The position numbers and the translations under genes were made by a program. 64,000 bases of DNA, from positions 23,679,979-23,743,978 of the forward strand of contig OZ035998.1 of the NCBI GenBank assembly GCA_964035015.1, in the 5' to 3' direction. Below are positions 12,731-51,600 of this stretch, one piece after another (positions within the stretch are counted from its first letter, which is position 1; each line of letters begins with the position of its first letter). The notes under the pieces are model-generated. The model ran no database searches. It saw only the letters and a list, made by a program, of their open reading frames with translations, and had not been told where the DNA came from. Origin of the DNA: Corallium rubrum. Taxonomy: Eukaryota; Cnidaria; Anthozoa; Scleralcyonacea; Coralliidae.

Positions 12731-30564
<17,834 letters not shown>

Positions 30565-30799
30565 TTTGTAAATTCTTGTTGGCGAGATTTACAACGTTCT
30601 CGTGTGTTCGGGAATGAAGTATTCTTAAAAGAAACAACACAGATAATACGTCAGTCATCCCAAGACTTGTCCTAAAGCAAAACAGAAATCTCCACGTGTT
30701 AAAATTACTGTTAAAAAGACTTCAACCTACCTCCTCTACTCTCTCAGGTGAACTCAACGCAGCCGCAGGTCGGCAAGTACGGCGTGCTTGAAGTCTCGA

Positions 30800-32280
30800 T
30801 CATTCTTATTGGCCAATCACCCTCACGTGGTGCGCGAAAACTTTAAATGTCACCTGCAGTCGCGGGATACTGGCGCTCAAATCATGCCGAATTTGTCATT
30901 TTGGCGGATCCGGCTTCACGCGAATTAAAACAACGGAAACATTGTTATTTTCTTTGGAAAATATGGAAAATTAATGCTGAGCAAATTACGAAAACTTACG
31001 AAAACTTCAGCTAAAGACGAGAACATTTTGACGCTATTCACGCAAACAACATTTTGACAGGGTGATACTTTATTATGCATAGTCATAGCGGGTGACTGGT
31101 GAATCACCGCGGTGACGAGCCGTCTGCGGCGCAGGTTTAATAAGCTGTCTTATTTTTCAGTCGTCAGACTCGTGGGTCACAGGCCGCCATTCCACCAATA
31201 TGTTTTGTGAGGATCATTTAGATTCGTTTTAATATTATAGGCTTATATTCGTTTGTTTAACATTTTTGGCAAAATGGAAACCCGTAGCTTCAACACTGAA
31301 TAATTCATAAACAGTCGTGGCTCGAAAGTTTTCAGTCGAGTTTATCCGTCAAGAACAGTAATTACTAACACATTTTCTGACAAAGAACTTGCACAAGTCA
31401 GCAGACAAGATTTGTCCGACATCATCAGTGATCAGTAGAACACTGAACACTAAACGCTTTCATGAAATTTGATCATTGTTTTCTCACTCTCAAAAGACCT
31501 TGACAAAAGTAGGAAGTTCTCTTTAGTTAATTTTCTGACACTATCAAGTCAAAGACAAATCTCGACTCGTATAAACGGTTTTTTCGTGCGAATTCAGGAT
31601 TTTGTTCGTAAGTGCTCCTAATTACTCGGGCTACCTGTGGTAGAACGAGTCTAGGTTTCGGTCTGGTTTTTTTTTCTGTCGCGATATGGCCCCAACAGGC
31701 TTTGCGAAACTGTGCGGCATGTGACACTTCTGACGTCACAGTTCAAATGCTGATGTTCATGGCGGATTTTCATACCAGGAATGGCGAGTTTTTTCTTCTC
31801 CTGACGCCTTTCGTTGTGTTGTTCGAAACTTGTGAATTTGTGTTTTAATGATAAACAGGCTCGCAATGCTTTTATACTATAGTAGACCTGGGTTGGTCCG
31901 CGATCTCGATAACCGTACGCTGAAAGTGTGTTACTCGATCAATGACAATGTGTTCTCCATCAATTTTATACATGTGTTATTAATTAAATTGTACTAATAA
32001 ATGTTGCTGTAAATCAAAGAAAGTTGATAAAGCCAACTTGCAAGTGAAAGGTAAACATGCTGTGTTTTACATCTTCTTTACATCATATGTCTTACACCGA
32101 ACTGACTTGTGTCTGTGAATGCTGTATGTAAATGTATTGAGGTTTAAACTGTATTAATATTTGTGGTTTGCTTCAGTTTTGCTTGTATTGTTTATTATTG
32201 ATTTATTGTACTGATGTCTTGCAAATAAAAGTCGATGCTATTCAACAGTTTATACATTACTTTCATCAAGTGTGTATTAT
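30800..32280. other. Intergenic between Vasa and the minisatellite
   Basis: No coding exon recognised. A dispersed repeat near 31615-31700 (ACTCGGGCTACCTGTGGTAG, then GTCGCGATATGG..CAGGCTTTGCG) recurs near 45374 and in part near 33985-34060. Confidence 0.45.
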
Positions 32281-32287
32281 TGTTTGG

Positions 32288-33012
32288 GTACACCAGTATG
32301 GCCACCATTTCAATGTTTAGTTTTAATACACCAGTATGGCTGCCATTTCATTGTTTTGGTACACCAATATGGCTACTATTTCATTGTTTTTGTACACCAA
32401 TATGGCCACTATTTCATTGTTTTGGTACACCTGTATGGCCACACTATTTCATTGTTTTGGTACACCAATATGGCCGCCATTTCATTGTTTTGGTACACCT
32501 GTATGGCCACACTATTTCATTGTTTTGGTACACCAATATGCCCACTATTTCATTGTTTTGGTACACCGGTATGGCCACATTTCATTGTTTTGGTACACCA
32601 ATATGGACACTATTTCATTGTTTTGATACACCAGTATTGCCACTATTTCATTGTTTTGGTACACCAGTATGGCCACTATTTAATTGTTTTGGTACACCAG
32701 TATGGCCACTATGTCATTGTTTTGGTACACCAGTATAGCCACTATTTCATTGTTTTGGTACACCAATATGGCCAAATGGCCACTATTTCATTGTTTTGGT
32801 GCACCAGTATGGCCACTATTTCATTGTTTTGGTGCACCAGTATGGCCACTATTTCATTGTTTTGGTTACACCAGTATGGCCACTATTTCATTGTTTTGGT
32901 ACACCAGTATGGCCACCATTTAGATGTTTTGGTACACCAGTAATGGTTACCATTTCAATGTTTTGGCAGACCAGTATGGCTGCCAAATCAATGTTTTGGT
33001 ACACCAGTATAC
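32288..33012. repeat. 33-bp minisatellite, about 22 copies
   Basis: The unit is a TTTCATTGTTTTGGTACACC block plus AGTATGGCCACTA, with scattered substitutions and a few 1-3 bp indels. Because 33 is a multiple of three, all three forward frames stay open for 80-220 codons; the apparent histidine/tryptophan-rich proteins are artefacts. Two adjoining units of the same sequence occur, inverted, inside the MITE at 40644-40814. Confidence 0.9.
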
Positions 33013-33440
33013 CCACCATGATTTTCTCTATGATGAATATTCCACTACTACAGTCAATTGACTGAAAGTTGCATCAAATTCAACCATTAACTCCAAACAG
33101 CACTGCTGCTGTTCTATTGTTTTGCAAGGCGCCAGCCCACAGTAGCCCGAGTTCACGCCTAGCGGGCGTCTTGTTCTAAAGGAAACTAGAACGTGACAGA
33201 TGGACATATTATTCTGTGACTTTACCATAATTATTACATGTGACACACATTACCCACGCATTTGATTTCTCATGACACTTCAGACTCCAGCGGTTGATTA
33301 GTAATCAATACAGTTGCCCTACACACGTAAAAATGCGCAAGCTGTTACAGACCTGCAAGCTAGCTACAAGGCTGTTCAACAGCGTATAATTAAATTAACT
33401 AATTACCAAATTAGGTTGTCTGACCGACTCTCGAGTCGAC

Positions 33441-34917
33441 CCGGTGTCCCAGGAAAATATCGCCCCCCCCCCCGGGGAGGCGAATTTCCTAGGAATATCG
33501 CCCCCCTTTAGGAATTTCGCCCTCCCCCTTTTAGTCGCAAAACATAACATTTATATTGCCAACAACACATGCATTCTGGAAGCCAGTCGAGATAAAACTA
33601 CTACGGCAACGTGTTTGAACACTAGAATTTTATGTCATATACAAAGAACGTTTGCAAACGACATCGTTCCCAAGAGTAATTTTCACGCCGTCGTGACCGT
33701 TGACAACGTGAAAAAGCATTTTCACGTTGCATAGACAACGCGGAACCTGAGTCACTACAGAAGCCTTGGGAAAGTTTAACCTTACTTTCGCGACTAACAT
33801 AGGTTGAACAAGTGTTTTTCCTAAAGAATTTAAGAACAGAATGAGTCCGTGCGATTATGAATGTATAAATACAACACTATTTAATACCACTCTTAAACTT
33901 CCTGCCGTACCCGTAGTCCGTTGTCAGGATCTTAAAGTCCCTTCAGAATCGGAAGCACTTCTATCTTTCATAAGAGTACCCTGGTTCGGGGCTTCCAGAG
34001 GTAGAACTGTTATTTTTTGCGTCGCGGTATTGACCAGACAGGCTTTGCGATATGTCCGATCGATCTGTTTAACGCCGTGACTTTAGCTGCTAGTTCGCCG
34101 CTGTACCAGCTTTTCCAACTTTCTATTGTCTATAACTTCACGGGGTTGAACGGGATTGTCTGACGGTTCCTTGAATCTGCCGAATCTAGCACTGCAGGTT
34201 ATTTTGTACGTTTTAGCAAAGCTTAAAATCATTGCACACTGTTGTGCTGTTTCGTACATAAGCTATGCTAAGCTGCATTACTAGCAGTACTGCCCGACAG
34301 AGGACAGGGATGCGATAGGCGAACATCTTGTAATGTTTCTCATTCACCGCCTTCCGAAGCGCGCGCTGGATGGTCTGATTAAAACGTTCATCTAGTCCAT
34401 TACTTTGAGGATGGTAAGCAGTTGTTACCCGATGCTCTGTCCCCACTTAAATTGGAGTTGTAAATAAATTATCTCTAATTTGTCTGTCTATCTGTTTTCC
34501 CTGAACAAATTATTCTGGAATCGTGTAATTTAATCGTGGGTTTTTTTCAGAAAAAAAAATCGATTGATAAACTAGAAACGATTAAAATGTTATCGATCGA
34601 CGCTGGAAAAAAAAAAAAAACACGACTAAAATTTCTCGCATAGTCCACTCGTATATCTCGAATGCTTTTGCGGGTCGAAATGACGCGCCATATATGAGAA
34701 GGGGGGGGGGCGAAATTCCTAAGGGGGGGGGCGAAATTCCTAAGGGGGGGGGCGAAATTCCTAAGGGGGGGGGGCGAAATTCCTAAGGGGGGGGGCGAAA
34801 TTCCTAAGGGGGGGGGGGCGAAATTCCTAAGGGGGGGGCGAAATTCCTAAGGGGGGCGAAATTCCTAAGGGGGGGGCGAAATTCCTAAGGGGGGGGGCGA
34901 ATTTCCTGTGACACCGG
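33441..34917. mobile_element. G-run TIR element 1 (CCGGTGTCCCAGGAAA..TTTCCTGTGACACCGG)
   Basis: The ends are CCGGTGTCCCAGGAAAATAT followed by C-runs, and G-runs followed by GCGAATTTCCTGTGACACCGG. Near the right end an array (about 34698-34905) repeats G(6-12)CGAAATTCCTAA about ten times. The left end carries CCCCCTTTTAGTCGCAAAACA, shared with the element at 47174-48201. It encloses an integrase fragment. Confidence 0.65.
34213..34446 (-). pseudogene. Retrotransposon integrase core fragment (Ty3/gypsy-like)
   Basis: About 35 residues read like the end of an integrase catalytic core: HRVTTAYHPQSNGLDERFNQ, then TIQRALRKAVNE. The second half of the frame is not family-like. No protease, RT or LTR is seen around it. 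It is a relic. Confidence 0.65.
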
Positions 34918-40643: not shown

Positions 40644-40814
40644 CTATAGAGCGTTTTCATCTTACGTCACGGCGGCCATATTGGTGTACCAAAACAATGA
40701 AATGGCGGCCATATTGGTGTACGGTATGGGAATTAGCTCTTTCTTATTCAAATATTTCGTATTGTTTCACCACCCCAATGGGCCACCGATCACGTGAGTG
40801 AAAACGCTCTATAG
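40644..40814. mobile_element. 171-bp MITE carrying minisatellite monomers
   Basis: The TIRs are CTATAGAGCGTTTTCA and TGAAAACGCTCTATAG, extended by TTACGTCACG/ATCACGTGA. Inside, GGCGGCCATATTGGTGTACC..AAAACAATGAAATGGCGG..CCATATTGGTGTAC is the exact reverse complement of the unit of the 32288-33012 array, in slightly more than one copy. Confidence 0.8.
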
Positions 40815-42603: not shown

Positions 42604-45600
42604 TCAGTCGGTCCATTCTGTTTCAACTGAACCCAAAACGACATAATCTTCGGCGGGCCCATCACCAAGCGCCAGATTCTCACCACCTACTTCTTGCACC
42701 AAGTACTTTTCTCCATTCCTGTAAACATCCTTGCTTGATTCTGGAAATTCTGACTTTGAATTACTGTGGCTCTCCGAAAAGGATAGGGAAGAGACGAGAT
42801 TGTCGGAAGTTGGCATTACTTTACTGCAATTTCCAGAAGCAACAATAAACATTGGATAACTTCCTTTTTGCATCGGAGGCTTTACAACCTGAGGTGATAC
42901 AAAACTTTAAGTTAATTTATTTAATCACGATATGTATAATTAACGATTATATAGGGGGTGATTACATGGACCGGTTAGCCATCCCCATCCCCCCCCCCCC
43001 ACCCCCACCCCAAGCGCCGCTACGCAGGCTAGGCCAGCTCGGTAAACCAGGGTTATAGCCTGCGTCCTATATAAATTGTATGTTTTTTCAACGTTTCGAT
43101 TACATGGCAACCAGGCTAGCCCAGTTAGCTGGGATGAAACTGTCCATGTAATCGTTCCGTCCCGGCAAACCGGGCTGAAAAACTGTTGAACTCGCTTCGA
43201 TACGCGTTCGCCCATACCTGACTGTGTGAACAAATAGTGCTGAAAGGAACTGAAATAGAACAACAAAACGTTGTTCGTGTGTTTCGTAAAGACTTAATAA
43301 ATTAATTTATCTTCGTTAAGACTATAACAATCTTTGATTTTAACGATGGGCTTACAAAAGATTGCATCCACATAAATGATAGACCAATTAGTGTAAAACT
43401 GAAGTAAAACGTACGATATGCACTACATGTATACGTAAACGTACCACATGCACTACATGTATACCCAAACGTACCACATGCACTAGATGTATACCCAAAC
43501 GTACCATATGCACTAGATGTATACCCAAACGTACCACATGCACTACATGTATACCCAAACGTACCACATGCACTACTGTACATGTATACGTAAACGTACC
43601 ACATGCACTACATGTATACGCAAACGTACCACATGCACTAGATGTATACCCAAACGTACCATATGCACTAGATGTATACGGAAACGTACCACATGCACTA
43701 CTGTACATGTATACGTAAACGTACCATATGCACTAGATGTATACGGAAACGTACCACATGCACTACTGTACATGTATACGTAAACGTACCATATGCACTA
43801 GATGTATACGCAAACGTACCACATGCACTAGATGTATACCCAAACGTACCACATGCACTAGATGTATACGCAAACGTACCACATGCACTACATGTATACC
43901 CAAACGTACCATGCACTACTGTACATGTATACGTAAACGTACCACATGCACTACATGTATACCCAAACGTACCACACGCACTACATGTATACGCAAACGT
44001 ACCACATGCACTACTGTACATGTATATGTAAACGTACCACATGCACTACTGTACATGTATATGTAAACGTACCACATGCACTACTGTACATGTATACGTA
44101 AACGTACCACATGCACTACATGTATACCCAAACGTACCACACGCACTACATGTATACGCAAACGTACCACATGCACTACTGTACATGTATACGTAAACGT
44201 ACCACATGCACTACTGTACATGTATATGTAAACGTACCACATGCACTACATGTATACGTAAACGTACCACATGCACTACTGTACATGTATACGTAAACGT
44301 ACCACATACACTAGATGTATACGCAAACGTACCACATGCACTACATGTATACCCAAACGTACCACATGCACTAGATGTATACGCAAACGTACCACATGCA
44401 CTACATGTATACCCAAACGTACCACATGCACTACTGTACATGTATACGTAAACGTACCACATGCACTACATGTATACGCAAACGTACCACATGCACTAGA
44501 TGTATACCCAAACGTACCACATGCACTAGATGTATACGGAAACGTACCACATGCACTACTGTACATGTATACGTAAACGTACCATTTGCACTAGATGTAT
44601 ACGCAAACGTACCACATGCACTACTGTACATGTATACGCAAACGTACCACATGCACTACTGTACATGTATACGCAAACGTACCACATGCACTAGATGTAT
44701 ACCCAAACGTACCACATGCACTAGATGTATACGCAAACGTACCACATGCACTATATGCATGTATACGTACAACTCATCAGGTAACGCAACTTTGTCTACT
44801 TTGTCCTTATTTACTTGATAATTGCGAATTTCGGCCTGAAATCATCCACGCCAATCCAAAACTCATCCCGCCTTTACTGGGCTAGCCCGCTCCATGCACT
44901 CGCAATTAATAAAATTCATCCGGGCTAGCTCGGTTAACCGGGCCAGCCCGGTTCATCTAATCACCCCCTTAATCTATTAAGATTATCTAATCACTGCAGC
45001 AAACGCCGACGGAGTCGTGAGATGTAAGTATTGACTTTGCTGTGGGAGGAAAACTGGAGCACCCGGTGAAAAACCATCAAGCACAGAAGAGAATCAACAA
45101 CTCTACTCACATCAAGCTAAAGAGGTCAACCATCCAAGTACTAACCCCATCGGGCTTAAATTCACCAGTGAGAGGCAGCGCGCGAACAGTTTGTGCCACC
45201 CATGCCTCCCTCAAGCGCGTAACGATGGGGAGTCGGGGACCAGACCCCTTGATTTGTGCCGTCACCTTGTGCTAAAAAAGACCCCTTTTTAAAAAATCCT
45301 AGTTGAGCCCTTGGCCTCCCATAGGGGACATCAAGATAGGTTTACCTCTCACCATTCTATTCCTTTTGTTATTACTCGGGCTACCTGTGGTAGGCCGAGT
45401 CTAAGTTTTCGGCTCGGTATTTCCCCTCCTTTTTTTTTGGGGGGGGGGGGGGGGGGGGGGGGGGGGTCACGATTTTGCATTTTCTCACTTTTTACTCCCG
45501 CTACTATTCATACTTCCCGTGAGTGGTTAGCTGTGTGACGGAGTGAGACCGTGAGGCATGTTGTAAGTTCTTTGCTCCTTTCGCTTTTGCAGTTGGACAA

Positions 45601-48600
45601 AAAGTTGAACAGCTTTGCCTTTTGATCAAGGTGTTCTTGCACGTTGTTGGTAGATTTCGAAACTGACTGACTGACTTTGTAGTTTATTTAACAGTCATGA
45701 TGTGGCTGACAACTCTCTTGATCGTAATGTTTGAAATATGCACCACATTTCCCCTTCGACTCAGGCCCCGCGCCTGAATCGAAGGTTTGCTCCATGTCAA
45801 AGAGTTGTTCCTTCATCGAAAGGTGTGGGTAATCTTCGGAATCATCGTCGTGAACTTGCGCCAAGTGCATAGAGCCTGAACGAAGGGTGAATATGGTGCA
45901 TACTTCACACAAGTGAACCTGACTTGCCAGTACGTAGGCGTCTTGTTTAATTTACAATTATATTCATGGCTCTTCTCCTAATTTCTCTTACTTATATAAA
46001 AGGTATTGATTACCTCTGTAGCTTTTTGGCAAAATTTCTCGAAGTCCATTTTAGTTGCGCAATAAAATCCGATTGTGCATGACGGATCCATCTTTTTGAG
46101 AGGCATCTTGCGTGGAGAATCACAATGGAAACTCTAAACATTTCATAACAAGAAACAAACAAAAACCCATTTCATTAGTTTCTCTAGTAATTCTAGAGAT
46201 AACTAGTTACATAAACACGAACCTTCAGCTTATACGCATGCATATATCACACGCGGCGACGTAGTAAACAAAAAGCGCCTGGGTACGAGGCGGGGGCAAG
46301 GTGATGTTGAGGGGCACAATTTCAAAAGGGCATTTTGAGTTTCAAAAGGGCATTTTGATTTTCAAAAGGGGGATTAGGGCTTCAAAAGGACACTCGAGGC
46401 ACATGTTTTATTATACAAAGTACAATTTTCTGCTGCAAAAGGGCACTTTACAACAAAGTTAAAAAGCACAAGCCCACTCTGTCCCCGGTTCCTAACGCCT
46501 CTGTAAGACAGGAATTTCAAAATCGCGTGGCCAAGAGCTTTAATTGATCAAAGCGTTTCCCAAGCCGATTCATAAAAAACTTATTATTCGACAGCAAATA
46601 CTGCCATCAAACTCTATAGCGAGTCTTAACATTTTCCCGGTTTGGTCTTAAAATGTATATATTCTACACTCGAATTTTCCTTCACCCCAAATCCTTAGAT
46701 TTTTCTTTGGAATATGTTTTATTCTATTCCAAGGTTGTTTACGATATTTATACCTAGGAACGAGTCAAACTGTACGCGTGCCACAAGTATTTCGGCAACA
46801 AGTCGCATTAACATTGTGTCAATTCCCATTCAAATGTTTCTCTACGTATAGTACATGGTGCTTTCAGCTGGAAGTTGGTAATGTTTCAGTTGTTTTTGCT
46901 GTACAACTGAGCTGGTTTTTTTGCGTATTGTTGAAGCTCGAAGACTACCAACGACAGCTTGAACAATGTACAGCAAAAACAACTGAAACGTTAACAACTT
47001 CAAGCCATACTTACGAAACTCAAATTTTGTCTCAATGCCTTTTTATTCTGTTGAAGTTGGTTTACTATTCACAGGAAATAACGTCAAAACACGCGGAAAA
47101 CGCAAGAGTTTGCGGAGTCGGAATCAATCGTGAAAGTTTGGGAAGTATTAAGTTAGGGGGTGTTTACATGAGGCCGGTGTCACAGGAAATCCCCCCCCCC
47201 CCCACGACGAAATTCTCCCCCCCTCCCCCTGGGGGGCGAATTTCCTAGGATATTCGCCCCCTCTAGGAAATTGGCCCCCTCTCGATTTCGATTTAAAATC
47301 AAAACATGTCAAGAACATTGTTTAGTAAATTTAATATGTTACAAAAATTATACTAGTCGACTAGTTCAGGGGGTTAGTTAGTCTTTTTAGCAGGTCTGCG
47401 TAGAATGGCATTGCACACATTTTAAGTGGAACAATTCCCCCCGCAAAGATCACATGAAACCATATCGTCATACTCTTCTGGAAGCTTGCATGTGCAGAGG
47501 GTATCAACTGTGGCGCTGTTGTGGTGTCTTTGCTGAACCATGGGACGACGTGTGTATGGGAAATGAGTCAGCTCGCCATTTTCGCCAAAAATCACCGTCG
47601 ATTGTCAATTTTATATACAAAGTATTATTATGCAACCATTTATTTTGGCCTACCTTGAACATCAAGCCGAAGAATTTTCTAAACAGCAAAAGCGTGATTT
47701 GAGAAAAAGGGCCACCGATTTTACTTTTATCGTTACGGCTTTTTTGTAAATTATTTGTTGGGCAATTATCTTTCTGACATTAAGACTATACGCATTCCGC
47801 CTGGTATCAATAGCAATAAATAATATCACTTTGAAAATTGTTAACGTTATCCGAGTATAATCGCTAATAATTATGAGAGATAAATGTGCTTCCTATTCAG
47901 ACGTAGCCTCCCTTCTTAAAATAATGGTTTAGTCGCGGTGACAAAATTAAATATTGCTTCGGAAATCGCAGTGGAAATAGTTTTATCTCGAATGGCTACC
48001 AGAAGGCATATGTTGTTGCCACGTATTGAAGGCAATGTTTGTCAATTTGGTCAATTTATGTTTTGCGACTAAAGGGGAGGGCGAAATTCCTAAAGGGGGG
48101 CGATATTCCTAGGAAATTTGTCCCCCGGGAGGGCGGATTTCCTAGTAATATCGCCTCCAGGGGGGCGATATTACGGCGGGACGAATTTCCTGGGACACCT
48201 GCCCGAAGTCAGGCCGGACTGATTTCGGGTCGGTTGTAGTGTTTTTACTATAGATCGTTTTCATGAATCCGACCTGAGATTCAGTTCATTTTCGATAGAC
48301 ACTTTAATAAAGCTAGAAAACCCCGCGAATTATAGGACTGGCAATGACCATTGAACAATTCAAGTGAATTACCTCAGTCGGGAAGTCTTCTGTGCTCATA
48401 TCCACCGAAGGTTGACAAAAATGTGGATCAAGGTGAATTAGGTTGTCCTCTGCATGAAATAGAAATAGTAAAATAAATAAACCACGCGAGAGCATAAATC
48501 CTATAAATGTAGCAAATGTGGTAGCAAGGAATTTCGCTCTTCTTTTGCTGTCGTGGCAATAGACTCGTTCTGTAAAATATTGTTGCAAATTACTCGTCAA

Positions 48601-51600
48601 GTTGAACAATTCATTTGATAAGATTCGTTGACAACTTCCTATCTTGAATTCTGTTTTGAATTTGATTGGCAAATAATCCTGTTTCTTATTGGTTGTTTAA
48701 AAACCAGAAACCATTCAAATTCAAAACAGGAAGTTAGCAATAATTTTCATCAAATTAATTGGTCAACTTGAGGAATATATTGCAACGATATTTTAGGAAC
48801 GCTATTGCAACTACAGTAATTTCATTTCTCCAAAAGAAAATTTTTTAAATATTTGAATACATTCTTGCAAGCAAAAAAGTACAGGAGTATTGCAAAAATA
48901 GCATATAGAATACACTCCATTAAATTAAGGTACGCCTATTAAATTAAGATCACTTAAAAAACACGAACCTTGAAGACCAACGAAGTAGAGAGAATGCTTA
49001 GGACGACCACCAATAATTCCAATGCAACAGTCTAGTGTTAAAAGAGCCTAAAATAACAAAAATCAATTGACCGTACCGAAAAAGATGGCGCCTTGTACAT
49101 TTGACCAAAATCCTTTGCGCGCAGTAAATATTGTTTGTTGCGGAATTCTTGGAAGATATGATTTTAAAACGATCAACTTTGGTGCCGTAGGAATAATGTT
49201 CTTGCTATTGATCCATTTGAGCTAATTTGAGGTAGCAAAGCATTGTGGTTAAATGTACCGTCGCCATCTTTTTCGGTAATTGAAGTTCAAGATAATGCAA
49301 CAAAAATCTAGCCTGCATTTTCATATAGCCATCAAAAATCTAGCCTGCATCACATTACAGTCGTTTGCACCTTAAGCGAAAACACCGCCCCTCAAAACAT
49401 GTTCTAATGTCAGTGTCAAACATAAAATGTTTCCCTTGGAAACATATTAAGTTTCCCTTCGATACGTACATGTTTGTGTCCTCTGCCAATCACGTCTTGC
49501 CAACGATTGTATAACGAGTACGTTTCATCTTGCAACGCAACGATACAGTCCTTGGGGCCTATGCGTGTACATCGCTCGTCAAAACATGTTTTATGTCAAC
49601 GTCAAAGTTAAATGTTTACCTTGGAAACGTATTAGGTTTTCATTCGATACATTCAAACCAATACATTATGGTCACATGAAAATGCCCTTAGCCAATCACG
49701 TCTCGCCAATCCCACGGTATTGCTTTCAAAACGGTTAACTTTGGTTTACATTTAGAACATGTTTTGACGGGCGGTGTACACACTTAGGTGACAACGACTG
49801 TATTTTAAGGTGTACGTTTCGAGAAAAATCACCTCGTGAATGCCGGAAAACTCCTAGTTTGTAATATAGTTACATTTCATCCCTTCAGACAACTTGTATA
49901 CATCAGAAATCCTAGAGCAACTAACAATAGCTTGTTCAGAAACAACTGTGTTGCAAGTTGCAAGAAAACTTGCCTTGTGTAACAACGCATTAACTGCGCA
50001 TCTCATTATATTCTATATACCGGGGCCATTAGGGTTAGAAAGCGGAGTTAGAGAAGCGGTTGAGGTGGAGGAAAGTTTAGTTTCAAGTGTAGTATAATAC
50101 AAACGGTCATACCTTTACGCAGGGTTTGTAAATTGGATTCAAGTTTTCGCCACCAAGTCGAACTGGAACTAAAATTATTAATGACCTCCAGTGGTCTTCA
50201 GAACATTGTTTATTGCAGCTTCCGCATTTCTTACACAGACGAGCAACATCATCCTTGTAAACTGAGAAAGTAAAAGAAGCAAACAAAATGAACAAACCAA
50301 CCAACCAACCAACCAACAAACCAACCAACAAACAAACAAACAAACAAACAAACAAACAAACAAACAAACAAACAAACAAACAAACAAACAAACAAACAAA
50401 CAAACAAACAAACAAACAAACAAAACGAATGAAAGAGCGGACAAACAACTCTCGAAAAGTCAACTTTTCGTAATTTCATTTAATTGCGATTGCATGGAGC
50501 GGGTTTGTCCGGTAAGCCGGTGTCACAGGGAATTCCACCCCCCCCCCCCCCCCCCAGAAAATCTCCCCCCCGGGCCATGCTTCACTTTATCTTATAACGT
50601 ACGCTCAGAAACCAAGAAGCTATTTCTGAAACCTGCTGAAACCCGAGTTTCTAAAACTTTCTGTTAGTATTTACAACTTGAAATTGAATAGAAAGTTCAG
50701 GTTATCTTTGGGAAGGAAGCATAATAAAGAAGATGGATTTTGCTTTGTTAACACTTTGGTATGTCTTTAATAATGCATATACCTACTATAGACCTTATTC
50801 AAAAATGGTCGCCAAGTTATCCGGTGAACAGACTCGGCACGTTATTGTGCCGAAGTAAATGCGATCTGTTGTTATTTTATAATTATGCCGTACGATACAA
50901 CCAATCACCACGCTCTATTCTATTAATTTACTTCCGAAACGATTTCGAACTCCGTTCACACTGGAGCTAAAACGGCACAAAAACCTATCCGATAAAAGAT
51001 GTACCTCTTTCGCGATCGGAGTGGCGCAGCGGCGCTCCGACACAGAAATTGTGCCGGAACAGGCGTTTTGTGTGTGTACAGAAGGGCTATCCGGTATGCT
51101 TTTCGTGCCAGCACAAAAGCCATCCAGTATAGTGTGAACGCCTCTTTCCTCCCGCGTTTCCGCTCTCCCAGTACAATTTGAAAACGGAACAAAATCATGC
51201 CCTTTAGGCCTTGCGTTTACACGATACTGGCACAAAAATGACATGAAAACGGCATAAAATGAAGACGGGTTCCTTGACGGCATGAAATGAAAAGGCAACA
51301 CAAACCGGTATCGTGTAAACGCACATGCCGTAACAGTTTGATGACGGTAATCACGATATATACGACCACAGTAGTCGGGTCAGCAGTATTCACAAAGTCT
51401 TCTCAATTCTGCGTTGGAAGAGAATAGTCACGTGCTAATCCGTCATTATATTATACCGGCACCGTGTAAACGCAAGACGTTTTGGCCTGTATTTACATAC
51501 CGGCATGATAAACGGGGTCTAAAGGTAATAATGCATACCGTACTAATTAAGGCCCCGGCATCGTGTAAATGGGGTCTTAACAATGTATGCCAAAGTGTCA

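Follow-up and report, generated by a model that had tools for sequence, protein, structure and literature searches.

One 33-bp monomer in a MITE family and a HINE-like element of Corallium rubrum

Within a stretch of 64,000 nucleotides of the Corallium rubrum genome (contig OZ035998.1 of assembly GCA_964035015.1, positions 23,679,979 to 23,743,978 of the forward strand), here called the window, a short MITE and a minisatellite array stand 7.6 kb apart and have a 33-bp sequence in common. How two repeats of such different form came by one monomer, and whether either of them gave rise to the other at this place, is the question that the locus raises. A preliminary description of the same DNA proposed a local answer, in which the MITE seeded the array or captured units from it. 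Comparison of copies across the genome shows instead that the monomer is common to what appear to be two unrelated young transposon families, the MITE and a HINE-like element of which the array is the central part, and the question becomes one of the direction in which the monomer passed between them. The features on which the argument rests are collected in Table 1.

Table 1. Features of the MITE and of the array-bearing HINE-like element, in window coordinates
Feature	Position	Strand	Detail
MITE, young family	40644..40814	+	perfect ends; 0/171 mismatches to 44-copy consensus; TIR match counts
MITE element proper, if the target is TA	40647-40811		TAGAGCGTTTTCA...TGAAAACGCTCTA; TA at 40645-40646 and 40812-40813
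33-bp unit 1, inner left arm of MITE	40671..40703	+
MITE partial unit 2	40704..40722	+	19/33 nt
Right-arm segment at unit-1 offset, putative diverged inverted unit copy	40754..40787	-	global alignment score 13
HINE-like element (non-autonomous Helentron anatomy) with minisatellite	31623..33174	+	length 1,552; T at 31622 and 33175
HINE 5' subterminal inverted repeat	31624..31634	+	ACTCGGGCTAC
HINE imperfect inverted repeat	31639..31650	+	GGTAGAACGAGT; 2/12 mismatches; complementary to 5' subterminal repeat region
HINE 3' subterminal inverted repeat	33142..33152	+	GTAGCCCGAGT
HINE 3' palindrome	33155..33169	+	ACGCC-TAGCG-GGCGT, from sequence
33-bp minisatellite, HINE central array, about 22 units	32279..33010	-	tandem repeat detection, unit parse
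Array unit identical to MITE unit 1	32446..32478	-	33/33; parse of 22 array units

The MITE family and the unit in its arms

The window MITE is 171 bp long and is bounded by CTATAGAGCGTTTTCA and TGAAAACGCTCTATAG, perfect inverted repeats over 16/16 nt; in its shortness, its terminal inverted repeats (TIRs) and its lack of space for a transposase it fits the MITE class. Among 18 left ends of the family that do not read CTATAG the target letters are TA in 11, AA in six and unclear in one, and the 27 such right ends give TA in 15 cases and other letters in 12; a TA target, as in Tc1/mariner-like elements, is suggested. The 474,352,983-bp assembly that contains the window (312 contigs, 474 Mb) holds 1,832 forward and 1,880 reverse matches to the TIR pattern at two mismatches or fewer, against 96 and 95 for a reversed control. 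Eighty regions were fetched around listed TIR matches, and since the listing was one of exact matches on contigs C1 and C8, young copies are over-represented among the sampled loci. In the first 60 regions, the window copy included, 35 of 52 short paired elements measure 170-172 bp. Forty-four copies of 160-176 bp give a consensus identical to the window copy at every one of its 171 positions, and these sampled copies diverge from it by 3.0% on average (median 2.3%). The sampled family can accordingly be described as young and high-copy, and the identity of the window MITE with the consensus makes it look like a recent insertion at this locus.

Some members and relatives of the family deserve mention in their own right. 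One MITE of 183 bp (L061, positions 968-1150) has 12 additional bp behind unit 2 and by eye belongs to an older subfamily. Four others (L068, L071, L106 and L115) have the right flank ACAGGGTGTAT in common, probably because they entered another repeat at a single site or because one composite was copied. The window also contains a different MITE-like palindrome at 26336-26532, whose arms measure about 87 nt; its ends read TATAGACCTTATTCAAAAATGGCCGCC, and their outermost 15 nt are similar to the ends of the MITE studied here; a single end of this palindrome type lies at 50786, and at 48248 there is a single end with one mismatch to the 15-nt end of the studied MITE. A 15-mer of the MITE TIR returned 40 single matches from public viral contigs.

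The MITE contains the minisatellite monomer, as the preliminary description stated, in the form of one full unit and 19/33 of a second. The left arm (positions 1-60) can be aligned to the right arm, and when unit 1 is compared globally with the right-arm segment at the same offset the score of 13 is reached by none of 20,000 shuffles and by none of 41,778 34-mers from the window. Free local alignment of unit 1 to the right arm is weaker, equal scores being given by 6 of 2,000 shuffles and by 7 of 4,874 random window segments. A strand of the MITE is predicted to fold into a single long hairpin in which unit 1 is paired with the right arm, at -35.7 kcal/mol against a mean of -16.5 for shuffles (sd 2.9, z -6.7), a difference to which the perfect ends contribute. 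The hairpin energy is not decisive as proof for unit 1, 30 of 300 shuffles of unit 1 only being equally stable. Because the other arm has a diverged copy of the unit at the same offset, the alignment suggests that the 33-bp unit is native to the MITE. Two copies of 138 bp (L074 and L077) are without one unit and without the AAACAAT...GAAAT stretch, and as the right arm keeps that stretch they are read as deletions.

The array and the element that carries it

The array comprises 21.6 copies of the 33-bp unit, on the strand opposite to the MITE. The best alignment between the two covers 49 bp at 95.9% identity (E 1.4e-15), and a 20-nt probe from the unit, allowed three mismatches, finds 12 matches in the window, two of them within the MITE, and none in 100 shuffles. 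The preliminary description called the MITE segment the exact inverse of the minisatellite unit, which is true of the strand and of one array unit, identical at 33/33 positions (Table 1), but not of the array consensus, which differs from the MITE unit at 3/33. A second seeming 33/33 unit near 32781 proved an alignment artefact, the parse having a 5-nt insertion there. Array units lie at a mean distance of 11% from the MITE unit; this figure could be taken for a mark of an old array, but unit divergence was rejected as a means of dating the array relative to the MITE, since the array is copied in one piece with the HINE. A polarity from CpG decay (GGCGGCC to GGTGGCC or GGCAGCC) was likewise weakened by the CpG observed/expected ratio of 0.99 in the window. 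In public collections a 21-mer of the unit has no match, and a 19-mer has none among viral contigs and one among genome contigs, in what looks by eye like bacterial coding sequence.

The sequence on either side of the array has the anatomy of a HINE. Subterminal inverted repeats of at least 11 bp are looked for in such elements, and those at 31624 and 33142 agree at 11/11 positions; a palindrome follows the 3' repeat, and an inverted repeat complementary to the 5' one, of the type known from DINE-1 and Cg_HINE, is present in imperfect form. A 25-nt motif of the 3' end matches once in the window and never in 100 shuffles, and the HINE end sequence has no match in public collections. When the genome was searched with the left flank of the element, 40 of 1,677 candidates were scored, and among these 40 there are three copies besides that of the window, on contigs C30 and C1, that are 100% identical. 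The comparison set consists of 20 of the 40 scored loci, five more diverged copies and one further copy (L094/L130); divergence among HINE copies reaches about 10-20%. At the 20 loci the flanks differ outside the bounding T residues, and a T stands before the 5' end in 16/16 and after the 3' end in 17/17 of the recognised ends, the 5' end being unrecognised at 4/20 loci and the 3' end at 3/20. One locus (L144), with 29 units and a HINE 3' end, contributes nothing to this tally. The ends are as expected of insertion between T and T with no target duplication.

Tandem repeats of variable number occupy the centre of these elements, as they do in HINEs. The array measures 22-38 units in the 15 young loci in which both ends are recognised (22 in the window); in the five diverged copies its length is 15-40 units, and in L094/L130 it is about 10. 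A unit identical to that of the MITE at 33/33 positions occurs, once or twice, in the arrays of 16/20 young loci, the window included, and in 2/5 of the more diverged copies (L152 and L155).

The preliminary description had asked whether arrays of the unit are flanked by MITE halves. For the window array this is rejected: its flanks score like chance against the MITE and belong to the HINE. The HINE flanks give no recognisable MITE sequence against the non-unit parts of the MITE (best E 0.23), the scores of the 60-nt array flanks are equalled by 25% and 8% of 17,890 window segments, and in none of the HINE arrays examined is a MITE end recognisable. The window array is thus to be described, on its sequence, as the central array of a HINE-like element, bounded by HINE ends.

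Several neighbouring observations concern the HINEs themselves. A second array, in L094, has about 1 kb of flank in common with the window array, at 82% identity, and a MITE with a further insert of its own lies inside that HINE copy near its array (L094 988-1391; C1:53343887-53344290). The right flank beside the array is of at least two types, L155 and the L094/L130 copy differing from the other HINEs read, so that the junction between array and flank would have arisen or been exchanged more than once. Another HINE's 5' end, with the same subterminal repeat and a different interior, occupies 45373-45470 of the window; the inverted repeat of this related end, at 45374, is the better one, with 1 mismatch, and the window gave no second match to the HINE 3' end motif.

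Other repeats and a gene-like region lie nearby. An array of 10 copies of a 21-bp unit, GGGCGAAATTCCTAA, occupies 34702-34907, and two to three copies of the unit, partly inverted, occur in dispersed relatives at 33441-33600, 47174-47294 and 47978-48198, which have in common an edge like GACACCGG; the pattern is similar to that of the 33-bp unit. A 30-bp minisatellite of about 43 copies lies at 43407-44757. On the minus strand, 16558-30600 holds exons that by eye, in the list of open reading frames, resemble a DEAD-box helicase of vasa type whose start is glycine-rich, and the array-bearing HINE begins about 1 kb upstream of the putative start codon.

Graded unit numbers among MITE copies

A size series of MITE copies, which the preliminary description had named as a check, does exist: two units are the norm, and copies with 1, 3, 5 and 8 units occur beside them. 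Units are tallied here by their starts, so that the usual count of two means one full and one partial unit. A scan of the 80 loci and the window gave 98 matches, of which 74 are full-span elements and 24 partial, both HINE arrays being counted among the latter. Two units are present in 62/74 full-span elements, one in 10, none in one and three in one. Copies with one unit include the two 138-bp elements already described, and three units were found in L115, L091, L157, L159, L161, L162, L165 and L166 (in L161 the right arm is altered). A pattern for two full units matches at 106 + 117 places genome-wide and nowhere in the control; the 223 places include overlaps within one array, and ten loci and three further stretches from them were examined.

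Beyond three units the series continues with elements whose ends are preserved to different degrees. One (L160) has a MITE left end and four units followed by unrelated DNA, and another (L168) combines a left end with five unit starts and what looks by eye like the middle sequence of the MITE; in both, as in L169, the match to the right arm is not significant. Eight units lie between two MITE ends in L167, the left one weak (E 0.002) and the right one strong (E 2e-22). In L158 an array of about 46 units precedes a remnant of the MITE right arm (45 bp, 91%, E 1.6e-10), from which an insert with 81-nt inverted arms separates it, and no MITE left end is recognisable there. Arrays flanked by MITE sequence are therefore found at L167, with both ends, and at L158, with the right arm, while the window array has HINE ends. 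Composites of element and array of graded size, of the kind described for Xstir and Tetris, are present in L167, L168 and L158. The idea that a satellite could be seen emerging from a transposon thus holds for the MITE size series and for the 46 units beside a MITE right arm, and fails for the HINE array as a product of local seeding.

Passage of the monomer between the two families

The reading that we consider probable is that the monomer was born in a MITE arm, grew into an array there, and was captured and spread by the HINE; its direction is inferred from sequence comparison. The monomer would have come about in the MITE when a segment of the inner arm was duplicated in direct orientation. 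Unit number would then have changed through slippage during replication or through unequal exchange between the two copies, and a multi-unit MITE array would have been taken into a HINE ancestor and copied along with it. This order is favoured because the unit is present in both MITE arms, because its expansion in the MITE is graded and because an intermediate monomer exists: in the L158 array the prevailing unit (20/47 parsed units) differs by a single substitution each from the MITE unit and from the most frequent HINE unit, which itself accounts for 74/592 parsed units. The MITE that lies within the HINE copy of L094 and the hairpin pairing of unit 1 with the right arm also speak for it. 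On the other side stand the lack of recognisable MITE ends in the HINE arrays examined, the presence of the exact MITE unit in most of those arrays, the weaker local alignment of unit 1 to the right arm, the shuffles of unit 1 that leave the hairpin about as stable, and the missing or weak MITE ends of L158, L160, L167, L168 and L169. Whether the whole course was that the arm-segment monomer grew through 1, 2, 3, 5, 8 and 46 units in the MITE and then crossed to the HINE as its main amplifier and disperser is a more exacting claim, for and against which the balance is about level.

Transfer in the other direction, with the HINE array as the source and a MITE founder that took 1.6 HINE units into one arm and expanded them later, is the strongest competitor, and we regard it as unlikely. 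The exact MITE unit is found in most HINE arrays, young and older (L152 and L155 among the latter), which fits such a transfer too, and HINEs typically have tandem repeats at their centre (PMC7492417, in the parts covered). The divergence among HINEs (about 10-20%) also exceeds the MITE mean of 3%, in a MITE sample that favours young copies. Against it, the right MITE arm carries at the same offset a far more diverged copy of the unit, so that the MITE probably had the unit already when the two lineages came to share it, and the 183-bp MITE L061, of older type by eye, carries both units.

Less probable again is that a pre-existing free satellite gave its monomer separately to MITE and HINE, on the model of miDNA4, which is proposed to have captured an existing repeat (PMC12628747, PMC9659126, in the parts covered). 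It would suit the differences in monomer variants among carriers and the position of the 46-unit array of L158 outside HINE ends; that same array, however, adjoins a MITE right arm (E 1.6e-10), and the small part of the 223 two-unit places that was examined showed no array free of both elements.

The local model, by which the window MITE gave rise to the array at a distance of 8 kb or acquired units of it, has proximity and identical sequence on its side and is very improbable: the HINE in which the array lies is dispersed, other contigs bear near-identical copies of it, and the window MITE equals the family consensus. As a general alternative, capture of array units by the MITE is less probable than a unit native to it, because the other MITE arm has a diverged unit copy at the same offset. 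From the TIR counts a density of about one MITE per 260 kb is estimated, at which about 6% of sites would be expected to have a MITE within 8 kb, and the proximity of MITE and array needs no special cause. The two elements probably stand 7.6 kb apart since both families are common, and they are independent insertions.

To return to growth in the MITE followed by capture in the HINE, its separate parts have precedents. Satellites from MITE-internal repeats are known in Xstir and miDNA4 of Xenopus (PMC12628747, PMC9659126) and satellites from terminal inverted repeats in Tetris of Drosophila virilis (PMC4079207), as described in the parts of those papers covered. The Tetris foldback element and its TIR-220 satellite resemble the present case in having tandem repeats within terminal inverted repeats, in a copy number that varies within the element and in long arrays that outgrow it, and ends common to Tetris and a MITE, DAIBAM, may be counted as a further likeness; Tetris differs in its 220-bp unit and foldback structure, and the parts covered describe no monomer-bearing rolling-circle element (PMC4079207). 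The Xenopus MITEs, Xstir/Xmix and miDNA4, likewise show MITE, tandem array and composites together, and range from a single monomer to a variable array, in families different from the present one, as far as the parts covered describe them (PMC12628747, PMC9659126). Coral CMITEs are also small animal MITEs able to form tandem arrays, but in the parts of the source covered they have TTAA targets and mostly CCCTTT-type ends, and whole elements are arrayed (PMC2872659); membership of the window MITE among them was rejected, the conserved 60-bp CMITE core giving a best window E of 0.36, which is not significant. The HINE side corresponds to Cg_HINE of oyster and to DINE-1/HINE in subterminal inverted repeats, inverted repeat, 3' palindrome, T-T insertion and a central array of a kind already known, and differs in that its central monomer is also a MITE arm segment (PMC7492417, PMC4067079, in the parts covered). 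No report was found of the present MITE family, or of any one monomer followed from MITE copies of graded size to a HINE, and six sequence strings had no match in the literature searched, which does not prove absence. Satellites of transposon origin have been described before; to follow a single monomer through two classes of transposon is less usual.

The beginnings of satellites are mostly inferred from their end products, and here graded steps are kept within one MITE family while the same monomer is now spread array-wise by a second kind of element. A monomer common to two neighbouring repeats need not imply local seeding. Copy counts in sister species and in long reads would make it possible to test in what order the events took place and how often the 19-bp duplicates slip. 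If the proposed course is true, it would represent the transfer of a satellite between transposon classes in one genome, in which donor, intermediates and recipient can still be read.
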